Source: Synechocystis sp. LKSZ1
GTDB lineage: Bacteria; Cyanobacteriota; Cyanobacteriia; Cyanobacteriales; Microcystaceae
NCBI RefSeq assembly: GCF_040436315.1
Contig: NZ_AP031572.1
Span: 1,178,001-1,242,000, forward strand
Reading direction: 5' to 3'
DNA length: 64,000 nt
In this document: piece by piece, positions 30,799-54,217 of the stretch
Layout: each line of letters opens with the position of its first letter
Numbering within the stretch: the stretch's first letter is position 1
Program-made: the position numbers and the translations under genes
The notes under the pieces: model-generated
Database searches by the model: none
Told to the model about the DNA's origin: nothing
Seen by the model: only the letters and a program-made list of their open reading frames with translations

Positions 30799-32808
30799 CT
30801 ATGCTTTGTCCTGATCCTTGGGGTCACTTACCTGTAAGGGCAAAGTAATAGTAAAGCAGGATCCCTGGCCCGGTTCACTGGTGAGTTGAATATCCCCCCC
30901 CATCATGCGACAGAATTGGCGACTAATGGCCAGGCCTAGACCCGTTCCTCCGTACTTGCGGGTGGTAGAGGAATCGGCCTGGGTAAAGGGCTGAAACAAC
31001 TTGTCCATTTGTTCGGGGGTCATCCCGATCCCCGTATCCCTCACTTGAAAAGAAACCCAGGGCTGGCCCTGATGGTTAAAGGGTTGTAGGCTAAGGGTAA
31101 TTGTGCCATTGTGCGTAAACTTAGCTGCATTACTCAACAAATTCAAAACACTCTGTCTTACCTTGGTTAAATCTGCCATCATCACTTCCGATGCCAGGTC
31201 ATTTTCAAGCACGAGTTGGTTATTATTCTTTTTCATCAGTGGCTCAACCGTGCTCGTAATTTCCTCGGTAAAGGTCTGAAGATTAAAGCTTTCTAAATAG
31301 AGATCCATTTTACCCGCTTCTATCTTAGACAAATCCAGTAAATCGTTAATTAAAGCTAAGAGTAGTTTACCCGAACGATAAATTTTTTCTAAATCTGGAA
31401 TAAAGTCCTCTGGCTCCAGTTCTTCTGCTTCCTCCATCAGGATTTCGCTGTAGCCAATGATGGCGTTAAGGGGAGTCCGCAGTTCATGACTCATATTGGC
31501 TAGAAAGACACTCTTGGTTGCATTAGCCTCTTCGGCTTCAGCTCTAGCTGCCTTCACTTCTTCAATAATTTGCTCCAACTGTTCTGTACGTTCTTGGACT
31601 TTTTTCTCTAGGCTAGAATTTGCTAGAGCCAATTCCTCACGAGCCAACTCCAATTCCTGATTTTTACTTTCTAAATTCTCATAGGAGTCCCTGAGTTCAT
31701 CGGTCATTTGATTAAAGGATTTTGCTAAAATCCCGATTTCATCTTCGCTCAGAACGGGAGCCCTTGCTTGGCGATCACCAGAGGCAATATCCAGAGAAGC
31801 CTTAGTAATAGCAAGGATTGGTTGGGTAATTTTTATTGAAAGTAAATAGACTGCAATTAACAGCAATAAAGTGCTGACTAAACCGATGAGTAATAAATTT
31901 CGGGTCAAGCGATGGGCTGGTGCAAAGGCTTCTGCTTGGTCAATTTCTGCTACGATTCCTAGGTTATATTGTTCCAGCCATTCATAGACTCCAATGACCG
32001 GCGTTCCCCAACTGTTAGTGTAAAGCCCTTGCCCGCTCTGGCCTTGAACAACTGATTTAATGGCTAGAGTATCCAAGTTAAGTTGAGGTTTATTCTGAGA
32101 TGGAGACTTACCATCACTAGAAATCATTGAAACACGATTATTAATTTCTCCAACTAGAAAAGTTGCTCCAGATTCCCCCAAGCCTGTATTGTTACGAATT
32201 AGAGTATCAATCGCTTGTAAATTCATGTCAAAGCTAAGATACCCTAGTCGTTTGCCTGTTCCATTTTTTATATCTGTCGCAAAGGTGATCATCGGTTTAC
32301 CTTCGGCGTGAGACAGATAAAAGGTAGGGACAATAGTCGTACGGTTATTATTCTCCCTAAAATAAGTTGTTTGATTGCCTATCCCTTTGTATTTTCCAAT
32401 ATTATTCGGGTTGGAAGAAGCCAGAACAATTCCTCCTGTACTTAAAACGTTAATGACATCGACATAGCGAGAAACTCCCACAATATTAACCAGTTCATGG
32501 GAGATAGCTTGCTGAATTTCCTGATGATCTTTGATGTTACTTCTTTTAGCCTGGAGTAATTCTAGACTATACCATATTGATCTTATTTTGCTCACCAAAA
32601 ATAGCCTTTGCTTCTCTCCTTCAAACCATTGCTCAAGCTGGTATTCTTTTAGATTTGCAGATACCTCTAGTCGTGCAAAAATCTGATCTTGAATCCCTTT
32701 GTTTAATCGTAAATTAGTAGTATAAGTAATTAGTGCAACAACAATACTAGAGAGAAAAAAATAGGAGAGGACAAATTTTAACAGCAAACTTTTCTGGAGA
32801 AATTTCAT
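30799..32808 (-). CDS. dCache-HAMP sensor histidine kinase
   Basis: The protein has about 669 residues from ATG 32808 (an earlier in-frame start at 32823 adds five). Order: N-terminal membrane helix ([18 protein letters not shown]), a periplasmic double-Cache domain of about 270 residues, a second helix ([20 protein letters not shown]), HAMP, a coiled coil ([21 protein letters not shown]), then HisKA with [15 protein letters not shown] and HATPase_c with [16 protein letters not shown] and GGTGLGLA. It should sense a small extracellular ligand and phosphorylate a regulator. The divergent CheY-like protein at 33303 is the obvious candidate partner. Its Cache domain resembles that of the orphan sensor at 35501. 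Confidence 0.92.
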
Positions 32809-33238
32809 AGAACCATCACACAATCAAGAAGAATTATTCCTAAACGTCAAAAAATACGTTAAGATTTTTTCCAGCTGTCGCTATTATGCAATTCTTAAAA
32901 ATATGGCTACGACCGATACGTAACTAGGCAGAAACCCTTTGTGCTTTAATAGGGACGCAAACAATCTTAACCAAAAGTCCCGTTTGACAATCATTCGCAT
33001 GGTGTAGTGTTATATTTTTGCAATTATGGCGATCATGCTAAAGCATATCTTACTTTAATTAACCATAGTTCGCTACTGCTATTATAATTAAATTCTGGAT
33101 TGAGAATTTCTCAGTTCTCCCCATCAGTTTAGAATAGAGACCGACAATCTCAAGATAGCTCCTGTCTAGTCATCTAGCAAAGTATTGTGAATGGCAGGCT
33201 ACTATCCGGATATTTTGAGGGTTATCCGAGGAGAGCTT
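32809..33238. other. AT-rich divergent intergenic region
   Basis: This 430-base region separates the histidine kinase from the response-regulator genes and should contain both promoters. A TTGACA (32984-32989) lies 19-21 bases before TGTTATATT (33009-33017), a weak plus-strand promoter candidate. TATTATAAT occurs near 33080. I see no ORF here with a good ribosome binding site. Confidence 0.4.
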
Positions 33239-33325
33239 ATGATCTTACTTTCTTGGTTTGCTTTCTTACTTAACAATTTTCGCTCAATAACTGTAAAAAC
33301 TCATGGCAAAAATACTTTTAGTTGA
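33239..33325 (+). CDS. Possible 28-codon upstream ORF / leader peptide
   Basis: An ATG at 33239 with a strong GAGGAGA in front opens a 28-residue ORF: MILLSWFAFLLNNFRS, then ITVKTHGKNTFS. Its stop (33323-33325) lies 20 bases inside the response-regulator gene that starts at 33303. The regulator's own ATG has no visible Shine-Dalgarno signal. This arrangement suggests translational coupling, with ribosomes ending the short ORF and restarting on the regulator. It could be chance; the hydrophobic peptide is not a known family. Confidence 0.4.
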   Translation: MILLSWFAFLLNNFRSITVKTHGKNTFS

Positions 33326-33662
33326 AGACAATGAATTAAACCGCGATATGTTGTCTCGACGCTTGATCCGTCGGGGTTATCTCCTTGTATTTGCAATGGA
33401 TGGAGAAATGGCAGTCAACATGGCCACATCAGAATTACCGGATCTCATTTTGATGGATGTAAGTTTGCCGATTTTTGACGGTCTCACAGCAACACAGAAA
33501 ATTAGAGCCAATCCCGTAACAATGAATATTCCAATTATTGCGCTAACGGCTCATGCAATGGCTGGGGACAAGGAAAAAGCTTTAGCAGCAGGCTGTAATG
33601 ATTATGATACTAAACCGATCGACATTAAAAGACTACTGGAAAAAATAGAAGCACTCCTTTAA
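33303..33662 (+). CDS. CheY-like single-domain response regulator
   Basis: This 119-residue receiver domain has acidic pocket VEDN at the start, phospho-acceptor Asp52 in LILMDVSLPIFDG, the switch threonine in ALTAHAM, and the lysine in YDTKPIDIK. It has no output domain. Regulators of this form usually act as phosphate relays or bind partner proteins. It lies between the divergent dCache kinase and a PP2C-type gene 66 bases downstream, so it probably works in that pathway. Confidence 0.9.
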   Translation: MAKILLVEDNELNRDMLSRRLIRRGYLLVFAMDGEMAVNMATSELPDLILMDVSLPIFDGLTATQKIRANPVTMNIPIIALTAHAMAGDKEKALAAGCNDYDTKPIDIKRLLEKIEALL

Positions 33663-33728
33663 TGTCTTTGTTTTAACTGGCTTTGCTTAGCAGATTGGGT
33701 TCGGATTAAAATAAAAAATGGATATATT

Positions 33729-35470
33729 ATGGATTATCAACTAGAAGCAACAAACTTAGATAGTATTATTTCTTTTGTTCGCCATGAACTAAAAACACCG
33801 ATTAATGCCATCCTGGGTTACGGAGAGATATTGCAGGAGGACTTAGAGGAGGACGAATGTTCTTGGTATAATCAATTAGAAAAAATCATTTACAATGGAA
33901 AGGCAATACTTGATATCGTTAATGATAACTTACTTATTCCCAACGCTCTAGATGTATCTTATCCTGATTTTTCTAAATTGGGTCACGAAGTAGCCCAAAA
34001 AAGTAATCAATTAATTGAAGAAGTAATTGAAATTACAGGACAACTCTCTCTAGATGTTGAGGATGAACAAACGAAAGAAGATATTGATAAAATCCACGAC
34101 TCAGCCCAGCGTTTACAGGTACTAGTTCATGATATTAATACAATTATTGAGCATTATTTAGCGTCACAGTCTCAAGGAAAAACCTCTTCAGAGCCGCCAT
34201 CAGAAGTACCGTCAGTAATGTCTAGTAAGTCGGCAACGCTAGAGGTTTCTAGTGCCAAGATCTTAGTCGTTGATGACACACAAACCAATTTAGATTTACT
34301 ATCACGTCAATTAGTGCGCAAGGGCCATCAAGTGACAACTTGTCTGAGCGCCAAGCTGGCATTAAAAAAACTGGAAGTGGAGGAATACGACTTAATTTTA
34401 CTGGATTTGATTATGCCTGAAATGAATGGCTATCAATTACTGGAGTATCTAAAAAGTAATTCTCAATACCGACACATTCCTGTGATCATGATTTCTGCTT
34501 TAGATGATCTTAGCAGTATAATTTCTTGTATAGAAATTGGAGCTGAAGATTTCTTACCTAAGCCTTTTGATCCCGTCTTATTAAAGGCTAGAATTGATTC
34601 TTCTTTGGAGAGAAAACGCCTTAGAGATAAAGAGAAACTGTATACTATGCAGGTTGAAAAATTATCTCAAATGATGCAAAAAGAACTAGACAAGGGCCGT
34701 CAAATGCAAAAAAATTTCCTTCCCAGCCACCTGTTAGTGAAAACAGGTTGGGAATTTGATGCTTTCTTTAGTCCAGCTCGACAGTTAGCCGGGGATTTCT
34801 ATGATTGTTTTGAGTTGTCAGATAACTGTGTGGGTCTAGTTGTTGCTGATGTTTGTGATAAAGGCGTTGGTGCTGCTCTCTTTATGGGTCTTTTTCGGAG
34901 CTTAATTCGTATTTTTCTGGCCAGACTTCTTTAGAAGGGCTCAATACTCCCAGCAATAAAAATAAGCTATCGTCCAACGATTTACTAGCTAACTATCCGC
35001 TTCAAGCCCTAGATGCTGTTCGTTTAGTCAACAACTACGTTGCCCTCAATCACGGAGATACGGGGATGTTTGCCACCCTATTTTTTGGAATGCTAGATTT
35101 GGAGTCTGGGGTCTTGCACTATATCAACGGGGGTCACGAACCTGCATTTGTGTTAAACCGAGATCATCAAATTCAACAAACCCTCAAGTCAACTGGGCCA
35201 GCTGTAGGTATGTTGCCAGACCTTCCCTTCAAAGTGCAACAAACCGTACTTAATCCTGAGGATACTTTAGTGATTTATACCGATGGTGTTCCTGAAGCGA
35301 AGTCTTCCACTGGCGAATTTTTTAAGCCAGAACGTTTAATTGCTGCTCTAGAAAAGCCCCAGTTATCCGCTAAAGCGACCCTAGACTATATTACTCAGCA
35401 AGTTCTTGATCATATTGGGGAAGCTGAGCAATTTGATGACATCACATTACTGGTAACTAGACGGTCATAA
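33729..35470 (+). pseudogene. HisKA-like / receiver / SpoIIE-type PP2C phosphatase, split by a one-base frameshift
   Basis: The first frame (33729-34934, 401 residues) holds an N-terminal HisKA-like helix pair, VRHELKTPINAILGYGE, with no ATPase domain. A receiver (VDDTQTN, LILLDLIMPEMNG, KPFDP) follows, then the first part of a SpoIIE/RsbU phosphatase (RQLAGDFYDCF, VADVCDKGVGAALFMG). At 34912-34916 a run of five T breaks the frame. With one more T the protein reads on through SGQTSLEG into YVALNHGDTGMFATLFFG, YINGGHEPA, IYTDGVPEA and the terminal EQFDDITLLV. Restored length is about 580 residues. The phosphatase metal-site acidic residues (GDFYD, DGVPEA, DDIT) are all intact, so the break is recent, an assembly error, or corrected by slippage. 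Such phosphatases act in partner-switching pathways. Confidence 0.85.
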
Positions 35471-35500
35471 TTCATCTATTTCATTACTGATTACAGAGAA

Positions 35501-36517
35501 TTATTTTTGCAATAGGAAATTACCTCGATCACCGAACCATAGCAGTATAATAATAAGAATCAAACTCCCCATTACTCCTCCAAAAAAGATTTGTCGGGCT
35601 AGTTTTGTCGCACCAGCAAATACTTCTGATTGGGCCACTTCAACTAGAAGTGCTAGACGATATTGGGGTAACCATCGGTACACACCTACGACGGGAATCT
35701 GGTTATAGTTTAAATATAAACCCGAACCTTGTTGTCCTTGAATTGCTTGATCAATGCCTAGACTATTCACACTTTCGTTGCTCAAACCATTATTGTTGGA
35801 TGCAGTAACGGACCGGTTAGCCACTGTCAGAAATGCATTAGATACTGAAGATATCCGACCCACAATATAGCTTTCTGTAATCTGACTCTTGATTTGCTCC
35901 GTAGAACTCTTGCTAACAACAGGGTGGCGGATTAGGCGATCGAGATCTTCTAGATTAACATCAATGGCTAGGGCCCCCATGCGTTTTCCTTCTACCGTGT
36001 TGAGAGGAGCAGCTAGGGTGATCATCGGCTTTCGAGTTAGGGTTGACTCGTATAAATTAGGCGTAACCTGCTGAATTGCATCAAGGGTGAAATAAGTTGT
36101 CGTATTTTGCAAGGGTTGATAGTTACCCTCCTGCTGTTTGTCCGTTGAGAAAATAACAATACCATTGTTGCTCAAGATAGAAATATTTAGACGCTTAGGA
36201 TCGAGCTTACTAAAACGACTTTTCAGTCTTTTATAGGCCTGCTGATACTCCGGCTTAATATTAATCCGAACTTTGAGAAGCGTGACTGCATCACTAATAA
36301 TTGCTTCATTCTCTAAGTCTTTAACAATCCCTCCTAGTAGTGATTGAAACCACTGCTGTAATTCTTTGGATTTCATGTCTGCAATCACTTCTAACTTCGT
36401 GATAGTGGGAGCGACCTGAGCCTGTCGTTCCTGAAAATACACAGCGAAAGAACTGAGACTCACAATGAGTAGGGCAAGTAAAAGCAATACAGTCAGTATT
36501 CTTTGTCGTCGATTCAT
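35501..36517 (-). CDS. Membrane-bound dCache sensor without output domain
   Basis: This 338-residue protein has an N-terminal membrane helix (ILTVLLLLALLIVSLSSFAVYF), a periplasmic dCache domain of about 270 residues (ISILSNNGIVIFST, LTRKPMITLAAPL, GALAIDVNLEDLDRLI, GLYLNYNQIPVVGVYRWLPQYRLALLVEV), a second helix (IFFGGVMGSLILIIILLWFG) and only 9 residues after it. HAMP, kinase or cyclase parts are absent. The domain is similar to that of the kinase at 30799. It begins 15 bases after a substrate-binding lipoprotein gene, probably one operon. It may present ligand signals to another membrane protein, or be the remnant of a kinase. Confidence 0.8.
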   Translation of the reverse strand: MNRRQRILTVLLLLALLIVSLSSFAVYFQERQAQVAPTITKLEVIADMKSKELQQWFQSLLGGIVKDLENEAIISDAVTLLKVRINIKPEYQQAYKRLKSRFSKLDPKRLNISILSNNGIVIFSTDKQQEGNYQPLQNTTTYFTLDAIQQVTPNLYESTLTRKPMITLAAPLNTVEGKRMGALAIDVNLEDLDRLIRHPVVSKSSTEQIKSQITESYIVGRISSVSNAFLTVANRSVTASNNNGLSNESVNSLGIDQAIQGQQGSGLYLNYNQIPVVGVYRWLPQYRLALLVEVAQSEVFAGATKLARQIFFGGVMGSLILIIILLWFGDRGNFLLQK

Positions 36518-36532
36518 AACCGCTAAAATGAC

Positions 36533-37897
36533 CTACTTCCACTGAGCAAAGATATTAGTTATTTTTTCAATAGCCGCATCAGCTGCTTTTTGTGGAGAAA
36601 CTTTGTCGACCACAATAGACCGTATTGCTTCTCCCCATACATTTTGAGCTAATACTTCACTGTAAGCAGCATTCAGAACAACATAAGAAGGGCGAGTATT
36701 TTTGAATTGTTTAGCAGCGGCGGTAACATGGATATCCTTAGGATTTTGCCAAAAAGGACGTTTGGTGATGCTAGGCATGACTGGAAAAAAACGTCCCTGG
36801 GCGCCTTCAACATAAGACGCCAAGTTCTGGGGCTTAACGAGGAAACTCACTAAGCTTTTTGCCTCCTCTAAATGGGGTGTTTGTTGAAAAATAGCCACTT
36901 GCTTGGTAGATACCACATAGCGCATGGGTTCGTTACTTGGCTTATTCGGCCACGGAATTGTTCGCATCCGTTCCAAATAATTGATGTCATCGCCACGTTG
37001 AGAGCCCGGAATAGACAAACTTGCATTGGCTGTCATTAGCGTTAAATTACTTAGAAAATTAATGTTATTGTCTGGATCTGTCCAGTCGACTGCTTTGGGG
37101 GGAACATACTTTTTGAGATAGGGCGTTGTATAAGCCGTCAGTGCTTTAATCAGACCATCCCGAACTTCCGGTTTATCGATTTGCAAGCTCCCATTACTAT
37201 TAAGAATCTGCACATTATAGGCTTCTAAAAATTGCTCGAATACGGTAAAGGTATCCGTTGCGGCTACAGACATAGGAAGGCCGAGGGCATACAGTTCTTT
37301 CATCCCTTGCTTTCGTAGGCTATCTTGGGCGGTTTCCCAGGATTGCCAAAAGGCAGACCATTGTTGGGGAATTTGTTTTGGGTTTCCCCCGGATTGCTCT
37401 AGAAGATCTTTCCAATAATGAATATGCGTCGTTTGTTGGGAGATAGGAACAGCATAATAAGAGCGCTTTTTGTCTTTCGCATTAAAATAAAGAACGCTCT
37501 GGAGGGCTTGTGGGCTATATTCCTGCTTAATGGGTTCAATGATACTGCTTGTGTCTGCTAGCTTACCTTGCCAGGCTAATTGAGGCAGTAAAATCAAATC
37601 GATACTATATCCATATATGATATCTGGGGGAGTACCCGTTTTGATATTATTCCGGGCCTGTTCGAGTAGATCCTTCTCGCTAAAGAAGGTTAATTTAACT
37701 TTATTGTTTGTCTTTTTTTGCCAGGCTTGAACCGTTGTTTGAATAGCCTCTGTTTCCTCAGGATAGTAGCCCTCACTCCACCAAACTTGTAGAGCTTGAT
37801 CCTGCGAAGGTGTCAAACGATTCGCGAGGGGATTGACATCGCATCCGCTTAACGTTAAACCAAGAATCACCGAGAGAAAAATTGTTACTCTATACAC
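36533..37897 (-). CDS. Extracellular solute-binding lipoprotein, family 1 (sugar type)
   Basis: Started at GTG 37897, the protein has 454 residues and a lipoprotein signal, IFLSVILGLTLSGC, with the cysteine to be lipidated. A longer frame from TTG 37936 puts 13 polar residues in front of the signal and is less likely. The mature part matches ABC sugar-binding proteins: LQVWWSEGYYPEETEAIQ, GTPPDIIYGYSIDLI, YAVPISQQTTHIHYWKDLLEQ and KQVAIFQQTPHLEEAKSLVSFL. No permease genes accompany it. The dCache sensor follows in the same direction, so it may serve sensing rather than uptake (inference). Confidence 0.88.
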   Translation of the reverse strand: MYRVTIFLSVILGLTLSGCDVNPLANRLTPSQDQALQVWWSEGYYPEETEAIQTTVQAWQKKTNNKVKLTFFSEKDLLEQARNNIKTGTPPDIIYGYSIDLILLPQLAWQGKLADTSSIIEPIKQEYSPQALQSVLYFNAKDKKRSYYAVPISQQTTHIHYWKDLLEQSGGNPKQIPQQWSAFWQSWETAQDSLRKQGMKELYALGLPMSVAATDTFTVFEQFLEAYNVQILNSNGSLQIDKPEVRDGLIKALTAYTTPYLKKYVPPKAVDWTDPDNNINFLSNLTLMTANASLSIPGSQRGDDINYLERMRTIPWPNKPSNEPMRYVVSTKQVAIFQQTPHLEEAKSLVSFLVKPQNLASYVEGAQGRFFPVMPSITKRPFWQNPKDIHVTAAAKQFKNTRPSYVVLNAAYSEVLAQNVWGEAIRSIVVDKVSPQKAADAAIEKITNIFAQWK

Positions 37898-38131
37898 AGG
37901 ATTGTAGGAAACTTCCACTAGAAGCTGAAATGACAATAATCAAAGAATAACTTGGATCTTGATTAGTAGACAATATTTTTAAATAATTTTCTTTGCTTAA
38001 AATATCTGTAAATCTACTTTTAATACTTTTTAATATTTCTTAAGAACCTCTTCATAAAGAGCTGGATTATTCCCAAAATCCCTTAAGACTAGCATGTCAG
38101 TACAAAATCTAGTGCTTGGTGATAAAAACGC

Positions 38132-48118: not shown

Positions 48119-50152
48119 ATGCTTGCTCTCCGTCTCCAGGGCCTGAAGCTCTCGATCCTGGCCCTTAGCGCTGTGTTTTGGCCAACCTGGCCCAGTATTG
48201 CTTCCAGCAGTTTCTCCCGGCCAGCGGAACAGGTCGTGGACTGTGACATCCTGATCGTCGGTGCAGGCCTATCGGGAGTGGCCGCCGCCTACGAGGGCCT
48301 GTTGGCCGGTAAAACGGTGTGTCTGACGGAAATTACCGATTGGGTCGGGGGCCAGATTTCAGCCCAAGGAACGTCGGCCCTGGATGAACAACCAACCCAG
48401 GCCCAAAAGTTGTTTTATTCTCGCGGCTATCTCGATTTCCGTCGTCGCATCCAGGAAATTTACAATGCTCGACATCCCGGCGATTGTTGGGTGAGTCAAT
48501 CCTGCTTTTTACCTCAGGATGGCCACCACGTCCTCTGGGAAGAACTGCAACAGGCGGCGAAAGACGGCAAGGGCCAACTGCAATGGTTCCCCAACACCGT
48601 CATCAAATCCTTGAATCTACAACCCCAAGGGTCTGGCCAGCAAATTGCTTCGGCCATTGCCATTCAGCACCGTCCCGCAAAACAGGCCCCGCCCCTCAAC
48701 ACCCTGCCCCTCTCCCAGACCATTGAGGACAGTTACCGCACCGAAAATTCGGCCCTGTTCGATAAAACCATTATTCAGTTCCAGCCCAAGGCCCCTCAGA
48801 CAAAGCCGGCCCCCTGGTACGTTATTGAAGCCACGGAAACCGGAGAAATCATTGCCCTAGCGGATGTGCCCTATCGCCTGGGAATTGACCCCCGTTCCTA
48901 CCTGGAACCCTCGGCCTCTAGCACTACGCCAGACCCCTACTGCACCCAAGGCTTTACCTATACCTTTGCCATGGAGCAGACGGCGGAACCCCAACCCCAG
49001 ACCATGCCGCCCTTCTATCCCCAGTACGAACCCTACTACAGCTATGAAGCAGCCCGCTTTGCCAATCCCGATCTACTGTTTACCTACCGTCAGATCTGGA
49101 GTCCCCAACGGGGTGAACGACAACAATTTAAGGGCCTTGGCTACTATCAGCCCCTACCGGGGAATATTTCTATGCAAAATTGGACCTGGGGTAATGACTA
49201 CCGACCGGGGACGGCCCAGGACAACTTCATCTACACCCGAGACCAATTGCTCAAGAGCGGTCAACTCGCCCCCGGCGGCTGGCTAGGAGGCCTACGAACC
49301 GATGCTCTCCGCAAAGGGGAAGAACACGCCCTGGCCTACTACTATTGGTTTGTGGCGGGCACGACGGATTCCCAACTGGGGCCGGGGGTCAAAAAACCGG
49401 CTCCTAACCATCGTTTTCTGCAAGGCCTGGAGTCTCCCATGGGAACGGCCCATGGCCTGTCAAAGTATCCCTACATCCGCGAATCCCGCCGTATTATCGG
49501 CCGGCCCTCGTTTTACTATCCCCAGGGCTTTACCATCAACGAAATTGATATTTCCCGCCGCGACTACGGGGAAGACTACTACCGTCAAACCCTTTCCCCC
49601 AGCGATTACCGGCAACTCCAGGCGGCCTTGGCTGGTTTAGAGGGCTTTAAAGTCCTAGAGGGCAGTCTGGCCCCAGAGGCCGTCCAACGCCGCAAACGCT
49701 CCACCCTTTACCCGGATTCCGTGGGTATTGGTTTCTATGCCATCGACTTCCATCCCTGCATGACAGAATCTCCCCCAGAAAAACCCGGCAATAAAGAACG
49801 GGAAGGTGAGCGCCAGGGCGGTAGTCGTTCCTATCCCTTCCAAATCCCCCTACGGGCCCTGATTCCCCAGCAAATTGATAATCTTCTGGTTACGGGAAAA
49901 AGTATTGCGGTCAGTCATATTGCTGCTGCCGCCTATCGGGTGCATTCCTTTGAATGGTCAGCCGGAGCCGCCGCTGGTACCGTTGCCGTATTTGCCCTCG
50001 ACCAGCAAATTTTGCCCTACCAATTAGTGCAGGAACCTCTGATGGGCCAGGCCAAGTTGCCGGCCCTCCGTCGTTTGCTAGAGGAAAATGGCAACCCCAC
50101 GGCCTTTCCCGATACTTCGATCTTTAACAACACCTGGGACCAGTGGCGCTAG
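48119..50152 (+). CDS. Exported FAD-dependent oxidoreductase
   Basis: This 677-residue protein has a hydrophobic signal-like N-terminus (LSILALSAVFWPTWPSIAS). The FAD dinucleotide-binding motif ILIVGAGLSGVAAAYEG follows at about residue 43, with GGQISAQGTSALDE close by. The C-terminal flavin part ends with NLLVTGKSIAVSHIAAAAYR, VHSFEWSAGAAAGTVAVFAL. The FAD-dependent family is widespread in cyanobacteria; its substrate is unknown. No twin-arginine motif is evident. It overlaps the convergent methyltransferase by 4 bases. Confidence 0.85.
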   Translation: MLALRLQGLKLSILALSAVFWPTWPSIASSSFSRPAEQVVDCDILIVGAGLSGVAAAYEGLLAGKTVCLTEITDWVGGQISAQGTSALDEQPTQAQKLFYSRGYLDFRRRIQEIYNARHPGDCWVSQSCFLPQDGHHVLWEELQQAAKDGKGQLQWFPNTVIKSLNLQPQGSGQQIASAIAIQHRPAKQAPPLNTLPLSQTIEDSYRTENSALFDKTIIQFQPKAPQTKPAPWYVIEATETGEIIALADVPYRLGIDPRSYLEPSASSTTPDPYCTQGFTYTFAMEQTAEPQPQTMPPFYPQYEPYYSYEAARFANPDLLFTYRQIWSPQRGERQQFKGLGYYQPLPGNISMQNWTWGNDYRPGTAQDNFIYTRDQLLKSGQLAPGGWLGGLRTDALRKGEEHALAYYYWFVAGTTDSQLGPGVKKPAPNHRFLQGLESPMGTAHGLSKYPYIRESRRIIGRPSFYYPQGFTINEIDISRRDYGEDYYRQTLSPSDYRQLQAALAGLEGFKVLEGSLAPEAVQRRKRSTLYPDSVGIGFYAIDFHPCMTESPPEKPGNKEREGERQGGSRSYPFQIPLRALIPQQIDNLLVTGKSIAVSHIAAAAYRVHSFEWSAGAAAGTVAVFALDQQILPYQLVQEPLMGQAKLPALRRLLEENGNPTAFPDTSIFNNTWDQWR

Positions 50153-51345
50153 GCTGGCGGGGCTAGGATCAGCAGTTGGCGTTGCTGGAGCTGGCGGACT
50201 TCCTCCAGGGCCATCGGCACCTGTTGGAGGTATTGGGCTACCGTCAGGCCGGGCTGATCGTCACAGGCCTGGAGCAGGGCAAATTCCCCTTCGCTCAATT
50301 CCAGGGGTTGGTAATCATAGTTAAATAAGCTCCGGCTTGGCCAACCCGTCATACAGGGGTGACGTTCGGGAATGGCAGATAGCAGTAAAGCATCATCCGA
50401 CCAATCCCAGCGTTCTAGGGGCGGCTTGACCAAGAAAAACTCGTAGTGGGTAATTTCGGGATCCAGCAATTCAATCAGGCGATAGCGTTCCCGCTCGCTC
50501 AGGCCGGCCGCTCGGGCCATGAGATCTGGAGATTGGCCAAGCAGTCGTTCTAGTTGCCAGTAGAGGGGATTGGAGAAGCCGACAAATTCCAGGCCCGAAG
50601 CCGCGATTAGTTCAAACAAGGTATCAATGTTGTAGTCCACCTCCTGGGGATGGACATACATATCGGCAAAGGACTCGTCCCGATGGTTTTCCAAAGACCA
50701 ACGCTCCTGCTCTCGTTTCCGCAAACGGTTGTGTTCCGGCAGGCTGGCAAAAATACTGCGGCCCACCGCTACTCCATCGCGGTAATCTCCCCGCTTTTCT
50801 CCCTGGAGCAAGGCAATGGCCTGTTGCATTAGTTGGATTTCCCAGCGCCCCAGTTCGGCATAGACAAAAATATGGAACAGGCCTCCGGGGGCCAATTTAT
50901 CCGCCAGGGCCTGAATTCCTTTGTGAGGGTCGGGGAGATGGTGCAGAACGCCCACGGAATTGATGTAGTCAAACTGGCCGGGTAACTCCGCCGCCCGTTC
51001 TAAATTTAAGTGCTGAAAGTTGACCCGCTGACGCAGAACCCCCGACTGTTGGCAACGGGTTTGGGCCACCGCCAGGGCCTTTTCGCTAATATCAATGGCG
51101 GTAATCTCTGCCTCAGGGTTGAGGTGAATCAAGTATTCCGTCCCCACGCCGGTACCACAGCCCGCATCCAAAATACGAACATCCTGGCGAGCCGGTTTGC
51201 GCCCTGTACAAAAACTATAGGCTGCCGTCCACTGCCAGCGCCAGTTGTAGCCCGGTGGTGGTTCATCCAGGAGCGGTTCTGGCGGGAAGGGATAGGTATT
51301 ATAAAGACTACGCACCGCACTGTGTTGGGGAGTATCGGGAATCAT
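50149..51345 (-). CDS. SAM-dependent class I methyltransferase
   Basis: Started at ATG 51345, the protein has 398 residues (the frame opens at 51450, but the upstream part looks non-coding). A short N-terminal segment (YNTYPFPPEPLLDEPPPGYN) precedes a class I methyltransferase domain: motif I VRILDAGCGTGVGTEYL, motif II ITAIDISEKAL, and FDYINSVGVLHHLPDPHKGI. The C-terminal 190 residues include a helical region ending in repeats like a small winged domain (GEFALLQACDDQPGLTVAQY). The substrate is unknown. Confidence 0.87.
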   Translation of the reverse strand: MIPDTPQHSAVRSLYNTYPFPPEPLLDEPPPGYNWRWQWTAAYSFCTGRKPARQDVRILDAGCGTGVGTEYLIHLNPEAEITAIDISEKALAVAQTRCQQSGVLRQRVNFQHLNLERAAELPGQFDYINSVGVLHHLPDPHKGIQALADKLAPGGLFHIFVYAELGRWEIQLMQQAIALLQGEKRGDYRDGVAVGRSIFASLPEHNRLRKREQERWSLENHRDESFADMYVHPQEVDYNIDTLFELIAASGLEFVGFSNPLYWQLERLLGQSPDLMARAAGLSERERYRLIELLDPEITHYEFFLVKPPLERWDWSDDALLLSAIPERHPCMTGWPSRSLFNYDYQPLELSEGEFALLQACDDQPGLTVAQYLQQVPMALEEVRQLQQRQLLILAPPA

Positions 51346-51476
51346 GGTTCTGGCAAAGAAAACAATAGAAATAGAGAACCCGGCCGGCCCAGGCCCTAGG
51401 AAATTCAGTATCCCACATTGCTGGATGGCCCAGGAATCGTGATCAGCCAAGACCCAAGCCCCAGGAGAAATGAACG

Positions 51477-51758
51477 ATGCAGACCCCCATCGACCGACCC
51501 TCTAAGCTTGAACCGGATCTACTCCATCAAGCCCCGCCAACGAAGATTCCATTTCAGGCCTTATCTCAGACGCCTGGCCCCTCCTCTATTCCCACTACTC
51601 AGTGGCCGGAAACGGTCTTGTCCTACGAAGGTAGCCAGGATTTTCCGGCGTTCGAGTCATATCGTACCGAACTGCTTCTGCCCAGTGAACCAGAAATAAG
51701 AAATACTTTAATTTGTTATTTTGATGTCTATGCCGTTAGCAATGGTTCATTCAGCTAA
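51477..51758 (+). pseudogene. Probable 5' fragment of a gene cut by the AT-rich island
   Basis: ATG 51477 has AGGAG 9 bases upstream. The first 70 or so residues are proline-rich and of native composition (PTTQWPETVLSYEGSQDFPA). After about 51690 codon use turns AT-rich and the peptide becomes EIRNTLICYFDVYAVSNGSF before the stop. This looks like a native 5' end joined to foreign DNA. I do not recognise the intact protein. It could instead be a genuine 93-residue gene. Confidence 0.5.
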
Positions 51759-51910
51759 ATATTTTCTATAATAATATATTGAAAGTTTTTGATCATTGTC
51801 GCTCTGAAGCATAACGTACCACAATTTTCTGCATATCATGTAGCTAGGCTACTTCATAGTTTAATTGCCGAACTCATTCTAACTTTTATGATTAGCGTAT
51901 ATTAATTTCT

Positions 51911-53269
51911 ATGGACGAAAAAATTCAACACGAGCTCAAACAAGCAATTCTTAAATCTTTACCAATTCTTAATACGCTACTAACTGATGATAATTTCGTA
52001 GAGCCTTATCTAGTTTGGCGTAAAGAAGCTAGTAGCTCTTGGCGTGGAGAGTATCATAAAAAACCTGCGCTCCATATGATATTCTCTGCTGCGGATAATC
52101 AATTAAAAAAGAATGGGGCATGCTTTACAGAGCAATTCTTTGAGAGGCATTCCGAATATAAAGGAAAAGTATGTGTTAGTGGATTTGGCTTGTTCCTTCA
52201 ACCCAATAATATTTTTCAAAAAATAATTGTTCGTTTTTGGGAGCGATATGAGACGTTTACGAGTGATGTTGCTGCAGTAGATGCCATTGTTGATGAAGTT
52301 GTGAATTTCGTGAATCAGCCTACCATAAAGTATTGCTTTCAGGCTCAGCTTCTTAATTTTGAAATGGCCGAGTCAGTCCTTATACTTCCAGAGAATTTAA
52401 GCATTCGAAGACTTAATGAACAAGAGGTATCAGCATTTCATGGTGGATCATTAACAATGCATAGAATTGATTCATCGCAGACTTTTGGAATTCATGAATT
52501 CGTTATTGAAGGAGAAGGAGAAACATCCAAGATTTTTGTCGATTCTCTAGATGATGATTCTCTAGTTGATAGAATAATCTCTTTCAATCAATTAGATCAA
52601 TCAAAAAAATTACTTAACAAAGCTATTTTATGTCTTCGAACTTTTAAAGAGGGCCCCATCGGTTACAACCAAATCCACTTTAAACCGTTGAGCTTCTTCC
52701 CCTGTCCATTTGGGACATATGGCGGCACTGATTTATATATACCATTTGGTAGATACGAGCTATTAACTAATGAGATAACTGCTCTACATAAGCATGCACA
52801 GCTTATATTTAAAGCCTCAGAGTCTGCAATGGAAATGGCCTGTAGCCGATTAGCAGATGCGGAGATAAGAACCCGGCCTCAAGATCGAATAGTTGATGCA
52901 GTGATCGGTATGGAAGCTCTTCTTCTGGCAGGATTGGGAAAAGAGGATCGAAGAGGCGAATTGAAGTATCGTTTTTCATTACACTTTTCAACTCTATTCC
53001 ATTCTCCACAGGAGCGTTATAACGCCTTCCGCAGAGCTAAGGATTTATACGATCTTCGAAGTGCTATCGCGCATGGCAGTAGTTTTACAAAAGATGAATA
53101 TCGTGTCGGAGAAGAGAAGCTGAGCCTTCTAGATGCTTCCAAGCGAGCAACAGAAGCCCTCCGCACAATCATTCAACATTTTCTTCCTGAAGCTGAATCT
53201 GCTCAATATAAGCAGCCTGAATTTTGGAATCAAGCCTATTTTCAACTTCCTAATAATGCTGCCCAGTGA
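51911..53269 (+). CDS. Apea-like HEPN domain protein, candidate defence RNase
   Basis: This 452-residue protein has AT-rich codon use unlike its neighbours. The N-terminal 260 residues match no family I know. The C-terminal region has the HEPN fold of the Apea-like group: RPQDRIVDAVIGMEALLLAG, LKYRFSLHFSTLF, ERYNAFRRAKDLYDLRSAIAHGSSF. Arg383 and His388 form the R-x4-H ribonuclease motif, which is intact. ApeA-type proteins are known abortive-infection anti-phage factors. A TATAAT-like box lies near 51768 upstream. No antitoxin or transposase is adjacent. Defence is an inference from family and setting. Confidence 0.8.
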   Translation: MDEKIQHELKQAILKSLPILNTLLTDDNFVEPYLVWRKEASSSWRGEYHKKPALHMIFSAADNQLKKNGACFTEQFFERHSEYKGKVCVSGFGLFLQPNNIFQKIIVRFWERYETFTSDVAAVDAIVDEVVNFVNQPTIKYCFQAQLLNFEMAESVLILPENLSIRRLNEQEVSAFHGGSLTMHRIDSSQTFGIHEFVIEGEGETSKIFVDSLDDDSLVDRIISFNQLDQSKKLLNKAILCLRTFKEGPIGYNQIHFKPLSFFPCPFGTYGGTDLYIPFGRYELLTNEITALHKHAQLIFKASESAMEMACSRLADAEIRTRPQDRIVDAVIGMEALLLAGLGKEDRRGELKYRFSLHFSTLFHSPQERYNAFRRAKDLYDLRSAIAHGSSFTKDEYRVGEEKLSLLDASKRATEALRTIIQHFLPEAESAQYKQPEFWNQAYFQLPNNAAQ

Positions 53270-53319
53270 CTAAAGAAAAATGCCTGACAAGCCCATTGAT
53301 TATTGGTTCCGATTCAGGG

Positions 53320-53439
53320 TTATCTATCACCACGCCCTAATTGACTGACAGCAGTAATAATCGATGCAGCCCTCCATCCAGTAAGCCGCAAGCCGTTGGG
53401 ATACTTGTCGATGTCCTTAGGACGTTGCTTAGTTAGGGA
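53320..53439 (-). pseudogene. 39-codon protein fragment
   Basis: A minus-strand frame bounded by TAG (53440-53442) and a TAA stop encodes SLTKQRPKDIDKYPNGLRLT followed by GWRAASIITAVSQLGRGDR. The amino-acid pattern is protein-like but there is no start codon. It looks like the C-terminal remnant of a gene disrupted beside the HEPN gene. The family is not recognised. The overlapping plus-strand 22-codon ORF (53280-53348) is probably chance. Confidence 0.4.
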
Positions 53440-53491
53440 CTAAAACCCTTGGATCAATTAAGTTTATTGCTCTTTTGTCATCCCTAGAAAT

Positions 53492-54217
53492 TTAGTAAGT
53501 AATTTGCAATGTTACTGAGGCCCGTACATTTTGTTCACCAGCAATAACAGGAGTGGGCGCAGGGGCCATGGCTCCGCGTACCATCAGACTATCCGCCTGA
53601 TACATTTTGGGAATGGGGGGGTTAGCGCCATTAACTTGGATCGCAACAATTTCCTTGGGTGTTAGGTTAAGGGATTGCAGAACGGCCTTGGCCTGTTCCT
53701 GGGCATCCTGGGTTGCTTTTTGTAGTGCTAAACGCTGGGCCTTGTTAATGGCATCGTCGGTGGCGGTAAAGCTCACGCCATTAATCCGTGTGGCCCCTGT
53801 CCTGACGGCTTCATCCAAAATACTGCCCAGGCGGTCGGGAGGAACTTGAAAACTCAGGGTATTGGTGCCCGTGTAGCCTTTGAGTTGGCGCTGGTTATTG
53901 TTGTAGTCGTAGTTGGGTTGGAGTTGAATCCCAGTGGTTTGGAGCTTATCAACCCCGCGACTGCGGAGAAAATCCACTACCGCATTACTACTTTTGGCAA
54001 CCTCGGTTTGGACAGTGCCAGCGGCCGGGGCCGTGATTTCAATACTGAGTTCGACTTGGGCCAGGGTTGTGGCGATGGTTTCGGCGCCTTCCCCCGTGAC
54101 GGTTAAAGTTCGCAAGAGGGTTTGTTGGGCCAGGGCAGGGGTTAGGGACATCACAGTACTTAAGCCGAAGGCGGAGATAGCGACGAGGAACGGACGAAAT
54201 ACCGGGGTCAAGGTCAT
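53492..54217 (-). CDS. Secreted SIMPL-domain (DUF541) protein
   Basis: This 241-residue protein has a signal peptide cut after TPALA (about residue 30). It contains the SIMPL pattern: LRTLTVTGEGAETIATTLAQ, VELSIEITAPAAGTVQ, LQTTGIQLQPNYDYNNNQRQ, GYTGTNTLSFQVPPDRLGSI and ATDDAINKAQRLALQKATQD. Relatives include E. coli YggE, linked to oxidative stress, and BP26 of Brucella, which forms channel-like rings. The precise role is unknown. Confidence 0.88.
   Translation of the reverse strand: MTLTPVFRPFLVAISAFGLSTVMSLTPALAQQTLLRTLTVTGEGAETIATTLAQVELSIEITAPAAGTVQTEVAKSSNAVVDFLRSRGVDKLQTTGIQLQPNYDYNNNQRQLKGYTGTNTLSFQVPPDRLGSILDEAVRTGATRINGVSFTATDDAINKAQRLALQKATQDAQEQAKAVLQSLNLTPKEIVAIQVNGANPPIPKMYQADSLMVRGAMAPAPTPVIAGEQNVRASVTLQITY

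Follow-up and report, generated by a model that had tools for sequence, protein, structure and literature searches.

The closest comparisons for the locus reported here come from described HEPN proteins. The superfamily description PMC3710099 gives a helical bundle in which helix 2 carries a conserved acidic residue and helix 3 ends in an R-x4-6-H motif. HEPN RNases act as dimers and do not depend on metal. Tha, carried by a Staphylococcus prophage, is a stand-alone protein of 301 residues with no discernible N-terminal domain, a C-terminal HEPN domain with an R-x4-H motif and an overlapping antisense inhibitor gene. According to PMC11087260, Tha-1 consists of one protein bearing R265NSIMH270, is activated by a phage tail protein, acts as a non-specific RNase and no longer defends when H270 is replaced by alanine, which sets a precedent for a single HEPN protein that can detect phage and shut the cell down. 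ApeA (Ec1ApeA to Ec4ApeA of E. coli) is likewise a single protein, with a large N-terminal part and a C-terminal HEPN domain; its ApeA-NTD1 is given as about 300 residues and mostly beta in PMC3710099, and PMC13405049 cites a preprint (10.64898/2026.01.26.701840) whose subject is the activation of ApeA by deoxydinucleotides. Finally, RnlA of the RNase LS system is a HEPN toxin in whose family a TBP-lobe-like domain occurs (PMC3710099 and PMC7221094), and its gene is adjoined by rnlB.

Here we analyse a HEPN-domain protein of Synechocystis sp. LKSZ1, encoded in a 64,000-nucleotide stretch of DNA (the window) of a host genome that forms a single contig of 3.67 Mb. Two PF00421 matches show photosystem II antenna genes in this genome, which is in keeping with a cyanobacterium; among 14 control genomes, Synechococcus elongatus alone gave such a signal. 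Computation supports a HEPN fold, an intact motif, a patchy family that crosses phyla and the lack of a constant partner. Its likeness to Tha is one of described architecture.

An AT-rich island with one complete gene

Against a GC of 0.50 in the window and 0.38 in the island, 500-nt windows drop from 0.51-0.56 to 0.34-0.43 at the island and stand at 0.52 again by 53.5-54.0 kb. A likelihood scan of 49-56 kb returned a best low-GC segment (GC 0.382, lnL gain 68) whose limits (Table 1) lie close to positions 51690 and 53490, where the initial annotation had seen the composition change abruptly and return. A foreign origin cannot be read from low GC by itself because the window has other AT-rich stretches: the lowest 1800-nt window begins at 32358 (GC 0.357), outside the island, and over 1% of all 1800-nt windows beyond its limits fall below the island's 0.383 (1st percentile 0.367). 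Ranked by GC among the 47 ORFs of 150 residues or more, the HEPN gene is second from the bottom (0.389), and its GC3 of 0.292 is the minimum among the five lowest-GC ORFs (all-ORF mean 0.526, sd 0.081). Its low GC might stem from amino-acid make-up, and other low-GC genes of the window are ordinary.

Table 1. Features of the island and its flanks (positions in the window)
Feature	Position	Strand	Basis or remark
Methyltransferase gene	50149-51450	minus	Flanks the island
VapB-like antitoxin remnant, 93 aa	51477-51758	+	Sequence comparison; tail may enter remnant of a vapC start
AT-rich island (best low-GC segment)	51691-53550	none	Likelihood scan and 500-nt GC windows
HEPN-domain protein gene, 452 aa	51911-53269	+	ORF, alignment, model
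N-terminal region, residues 1-284	51911-52762	+	Alpha+beta in model; without library family
HEPN domain, about residues 304-431; predicted active site E335, R383, H388	52820-53203	+	Model, alignment
SIMPL/DUF541 gene	53492-54217	minus	Flanks the island on the other side

As annotated initially, the island holds one complete gene, which starts with ATG and encodes an intact R-x4-H motif (R383-S-A-I-A-H388), next to a small ORF with a hybrid tail. The gene fragment that had also been read there was not identified: positions 53266-53495 yielded no assignable frame, and their sole second match in the genome spans 22 nt. Apart from that match, neither stretch flanking the HEPN gene has another in the genome at E≤0.1. 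No inverted-repeat pair linking both edges of the island was found, and no mobile-element ends were seen at it.

Elsewhere in the window, a second AT-rich stretch (30802-37936) encodes a Cache-HAMP histidine kinase, a kinase/response-regulator protein, a Cache-domain protein and a solute-binding protein. There, ORF 33729-34931 (HisKA and response-regulator) stops at position 35 of the 192 of a SpoIIE phosphatase domain and may be truncated.

The C-terminal domain is predicted to be a HEPN domain

The whole protein was modelled with AlphaFold (pLDDT 82.2, pTM 0.77) and the model compared with solved structures using VIA-align, whose lists need not contain every related family. Residues 304-430 aligned to the HEPN structures 2hsb (Z 10.2, 4.2 Å, 113 residues) and 1wol (Z 9.0, 4.2 Å, 108 residues) and to the sacsin HEPN structure 3o10 (Z 7.6), with HEPN in the titles of three of the four top rows, values to be read with the caution that helical bundles with Z below about 13 may reflect a common arrangement. 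Foldseek alone gave no match in the PDB at E≤0.001 (2hsb ranked 13th, E 2.2), and the viral structure library returned nothing at E≤0.001 with the protein model. The modelled helix 366-387 has R383 near its end and H388 immediately beyond, helix 323-338 contains E335, and an extra short helix (351-360) lies between the two; this arrangement agrees with that of HEPN helices 2 and 3 in the superfamily description (PMC3710099). E335, which formed no part of the search pattern described below, is identical in all 19 aligned HEPN domains; neither L043 (in A2) nor L053, each truncated where its contig stops, is part of that alignment (A7). Model, structural alignment and conservation of E335 thus support the HEPN assignment made earlier from the letters, and the C-terminal domain probably adopts, as far as a predicted model can tell, a HEPN fold with an intact R-x4-H motif.

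The N-terminal half has no match in the libraries searched

The N-terminal residues had been described as unlike any nameable family, and this holds in the libraries tried: the entire window protein, scanned against Pfam, PADLOC and NCBIfam, gave nothing at E≤1, leaving the N-terminal half without a family match. Residues 1-284 nevertheless align across the six full-length members of the family, with 21 invariant positions. The structure prediction suggested at the outset was carried out on these residues alone and gave an alpha+beta model (pLDDT 76.7, about 113 residues in helix and 62 in strand), which is not the mostly beta architecture of ApeA. Within it, residues 134-263 aligned best to chains from TATA-binding-protein entries (top five rows, Z 6.3-7.5, below the tool's caution level of 8); four of these rows are titled TBP and the fifth a pre-initiation complex, and the identity of the aligned chains as TBP is our reading. 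The alignment to 1vok_A covers 69 residues at 2.5 Å, and the row after the top five has Z 5.5. In the model, residues from about 134 to 263 are thus only weakly TBP-lobe-like, and we treat the likeness as a lead.

With the HEPN part removed, 26 hhalign comparisons (13 proteins against two N-terminal parts) all gave probabilities of 2.5% or less, where ten shuffled controls per part reached maxima of 1.8% and 0.3%. Slightly above the controls were, for the middle part, L044 (2.5) and L055 (1.9) and, for the first part, L055 (0.8) and L042 (0.6). A middle domain common to HEPN proteins of the L055/L057 type, hinted at by whole-length hhalign, was dropped after these comparisons.

The family is small and scattered across phyla

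Outside the window, the full-length family comprises five loci, in two cyanobacteria, a Thermodesulfobacteriota MAG and two Bradyrhizobium, all open frames with 27-44% identity to the window protein; an additional fragment in a Zixiibacteriota MAG is ended by the contig end. Identity is 44% for the Thermodesulfobacteriota MAG, 38% for a Calothrix MAG, 29% for the two Bradyrhizobium and 38-40% for the other cyanobacterial full-length member from genome searches of the phylum (G072). Sampling of the phylum (386 genomes) and of the order (291 genomes) gave full-length matches in two genomes each, the host's own included. A motif-pattern scan of an 84,980-species collection yielded 15 related loci, four of them full-length, one a fragment cut by the contig (L053) and ten matched chiefly at the C-terminus. 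Because the scan required the motif, conservation of the arginine and histidine in these loci (L049-L063) is built in, and the count underestimates the family. The family tree is weak, with one well-supported fork of six. At all six loci the HEPN gene has a lower GC than the rest of the locus, by a margin of just 0.017 in L049.

No relative was found in 50,697 phage records searched with the window protein only, in 72,556 plasmid records searched with three family members or in five viral-contig scans, and a first genome scan with N-terminal patterns found none. PADLOC gave nothing at E≤1 with the five other full-length members, and sequence searches of the PDB with the single protein and a 6-row profile returned only chance-level matches and no HEPN protein. 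As judged from sequence, this is a small, scattered family with no description in the libraries searched.

The gene was likely acquired laterally and shows no constant partner

The HEPN gene is absent from each of the four further genomes examined in the genus, which excludes that every relative inherited it vertically. The nearest relative found belongs to another phylum, outside the cyanobacteria; both results support the lateral arrival proposed initially. Orthologues of the flanking SIMPL and methyltransferase genes are present in all four genomes, far apart in two (G074, G405) and on different contigs in the others (G078, G091), and neither was found in the stretches examined around the other, so that no clean empty site is seen.

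An all-against-all blastp of neighbouring frames revealed no shared neighbour constant across the six loci. Two kinds of neighbour were shared, one histidine-kinase-like (L049/L051) and one deacetylase-like (L041/L052), as named from sequence reading; each occurs in one pair of loci at differing positions, and the other matches were frames inside the HEPN gene. No defence gene was recognised adjoining the HEPN gene among the few neighbours scanned. Since no partner is constant, the HEPN protein seems to work alone. Taken together, the patchy cross-phylum family, the absence from the genus and the lack of a constant partner suggest that the gene was likely acquired laterally as a stand-alone effector.

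At individual loci, in arrangements that are not constant in the family, the HEPN gene follows, on the same strand, a TPR-CHAT gene at a distance of about 140 bp (G072, L041 5859-10481) or, at about 100 bp, an ORF resembling the histidine-kinase-like ORF of L049 (L051 5250-9209). A vapBC-like locus in the same genus (L027/L038, G074:C1:460821) carries stops in both the antitoxin and the toxin frames.

A proposed mechanism and its alternatives

We favour, with slightly better than even confidence, a reading in which the window protein is a stand-alone, autoinhibited HEPN effector, released by a trigger and likely phage-sensing, that was gained laterally beside a decaying vapBC locus. The C-terminal domain would dimerise and cut RNA with R383 and H388, assisted by E335, and the family-specific alpha+beta N-terminal half would keep it silent until a trigger is sensed. 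The likeliest trigger would be phage infection, perceived as a phage protein or as nucleic acid or nucleotide fragments arising from infection, and the released RNase would cause growth arrest or abortive infection; we infer the RNase activity and the role in phage defence by analogy with Tha. The gene would have entered the genome as single-gene cargo.

Both the name ApeA-like, given to the protein initially, and the stronger proposal that it is a true divergent ApeA, activated as the E. coli proteins are, draw on sequence relations at the HEPN domain. The 19-row HEPN profile retrieved 11 PDB matches, seven of which are E. coli ApeA chains and the only HEPN proteins, and in three of the ApeA alignments the R-x4-H motif and the helix with the acidic residue are collinear, the helix-2 acidic residue and Y-x2-R-x2-I-V-H of Ec2ApeA and Ec3ApeA corresponding to those of the window protein. 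ApeA chains are therefore the nearest solved HEPN proteins by sequence, but at E values of just 0.05-0.47, below significance and outscored by two designed trefoil-knot proteins (5e-4 and 2e-3) whose matches look like repeat artefacts. Moreover, 108 residues separate the two aligned pieces in Ec2ApeA (381 to 489) versus about 20 in the window protein, the model of the N-terminal half is alpha+beta, and Pfam HEPN_Apea (PF18739) matched none of the six full-length members, nor anything in the host genome, at E≤10; weak matches arose in one of five (E 0.072) and one of 19 (E 0.027) relatives scanned, neither being the window protein. Comparison by hhalign with 11 cyanobacterial ApeA-type proteins (from 15 HEPN_Apea loci, leaving out three short ones and L095, which is below the cut-off) gave probabilities of 0.0-0.2%, and these proteins mostly have RNYLTH or similar where the window protein has RSAIAH. 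Because the PDB relation is below significance and two of three tests of ApeA membership came out negative, the window protein is not filed as ApeA, and we consider a true divergent ApeA improbable.

About as improbable is a toxin-antitoxin pair in which the protein encoded upstream silences the HEPN protein, a PIN toxin having been swapped for HEPN. The small ORF, VapB-like over residues 1-84 in comparison with G074, does sit 152 bp upstream of the HEPN gene on the same strand, and the expected vapC is missing from 47-58 kb of the window, leaving the ORF without the PIN toxin that pairs with a VapBC antitoxin; in the homologous intact pairs (L028, L030) the vapB-type gene precedes a PIN-domain VapC gene. 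Yet the five other full-length HEPN loci contain no VapB-like sequence (tblastn best E 3.8), and the closest vapB (G074) itself contains a stop and adjoins a broken vapC, so that this type of locus tends to decay. By eye, the tail of the window ORF may read into a decayed vapC start; the hybrid tail noted initially is best explained, on this sequence comparison, by decay of a vapBC pair, and the VapB-like remnant is probably not a partner of the HEPN protein. A housekeeping or stress RNase, or an RNA-binding protein, unconnected with defence would suit the methyltransferase and SIMPL flanks, the lack of a recognised defence context and the failure to find phage, plasmid or viral relatives; it sits poorly with the absence of the gene from the other genus genomes and, in full length, from 384 of 386 sampled genomes of the phylum, and with lateral relatives in other phyla, and we regard it as unlikely.

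Within the favoured reading of a trigger-released stand-alone effector, a bolder version, which we hold to be doubtful, would be a single-protein defence system whose HEPN RNase is gated by an N-terminal sensor with a TBP-like lobe, a nucleic-acid duplex or fragment from phage replication switching on RNA cleavage, and which spread laterally as a single gene across cyanobacteria, proteobacteria and other phyla. Should the TBP-like lobe be real and bind nucleic acid, the protein would offer a direct test of HEPN toxin gating by a nucleic-acid-binding lobe of the same chain. The family would add a HEPN member with a sensor half unmatched in the libraries searched, in hosts that include cyanobacteria and Bradyrhizobium.

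Relation to RnlA and to other HEPN families

RnlA, the HEPN toxin mentioned above, matched the window model structurally (6y2r_B, Z 4.5, 5.3 Å). It differs in that rnlB adjoins its gene, whereas the window family has no constant partner. Kinship with RnlA by sequence was unsupported (hhalign probability 0.1%, one RnlA against the 6-row profile). In the wider group, HEPN_MAE_28990 (PF18737) and RiboL-PSP-HEPN (PF18735) each match two HEPN domains out of the 19, with best E values of 4.9e-6 and 4.3e-5, whereas the window protein matches neither. Among the ten loci L054-L063, L058 alone matched HEPN models at E≤0.1, and its whole protein matches both of these families below the curated cut-offs. 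These ten, together with L042, L044 and L048, are diverse bacterial and archaeal proteins with a Y-x2-RS-x-I-x-H HEPN domain whose N-terminal parts have no clear kinship to that of the window protein. One unnamed HEPN domain of the 19-row alignment, other than the window's, matches NCBIfam Cas13e at E 0.0022, the rest of the 19 being at chance level.
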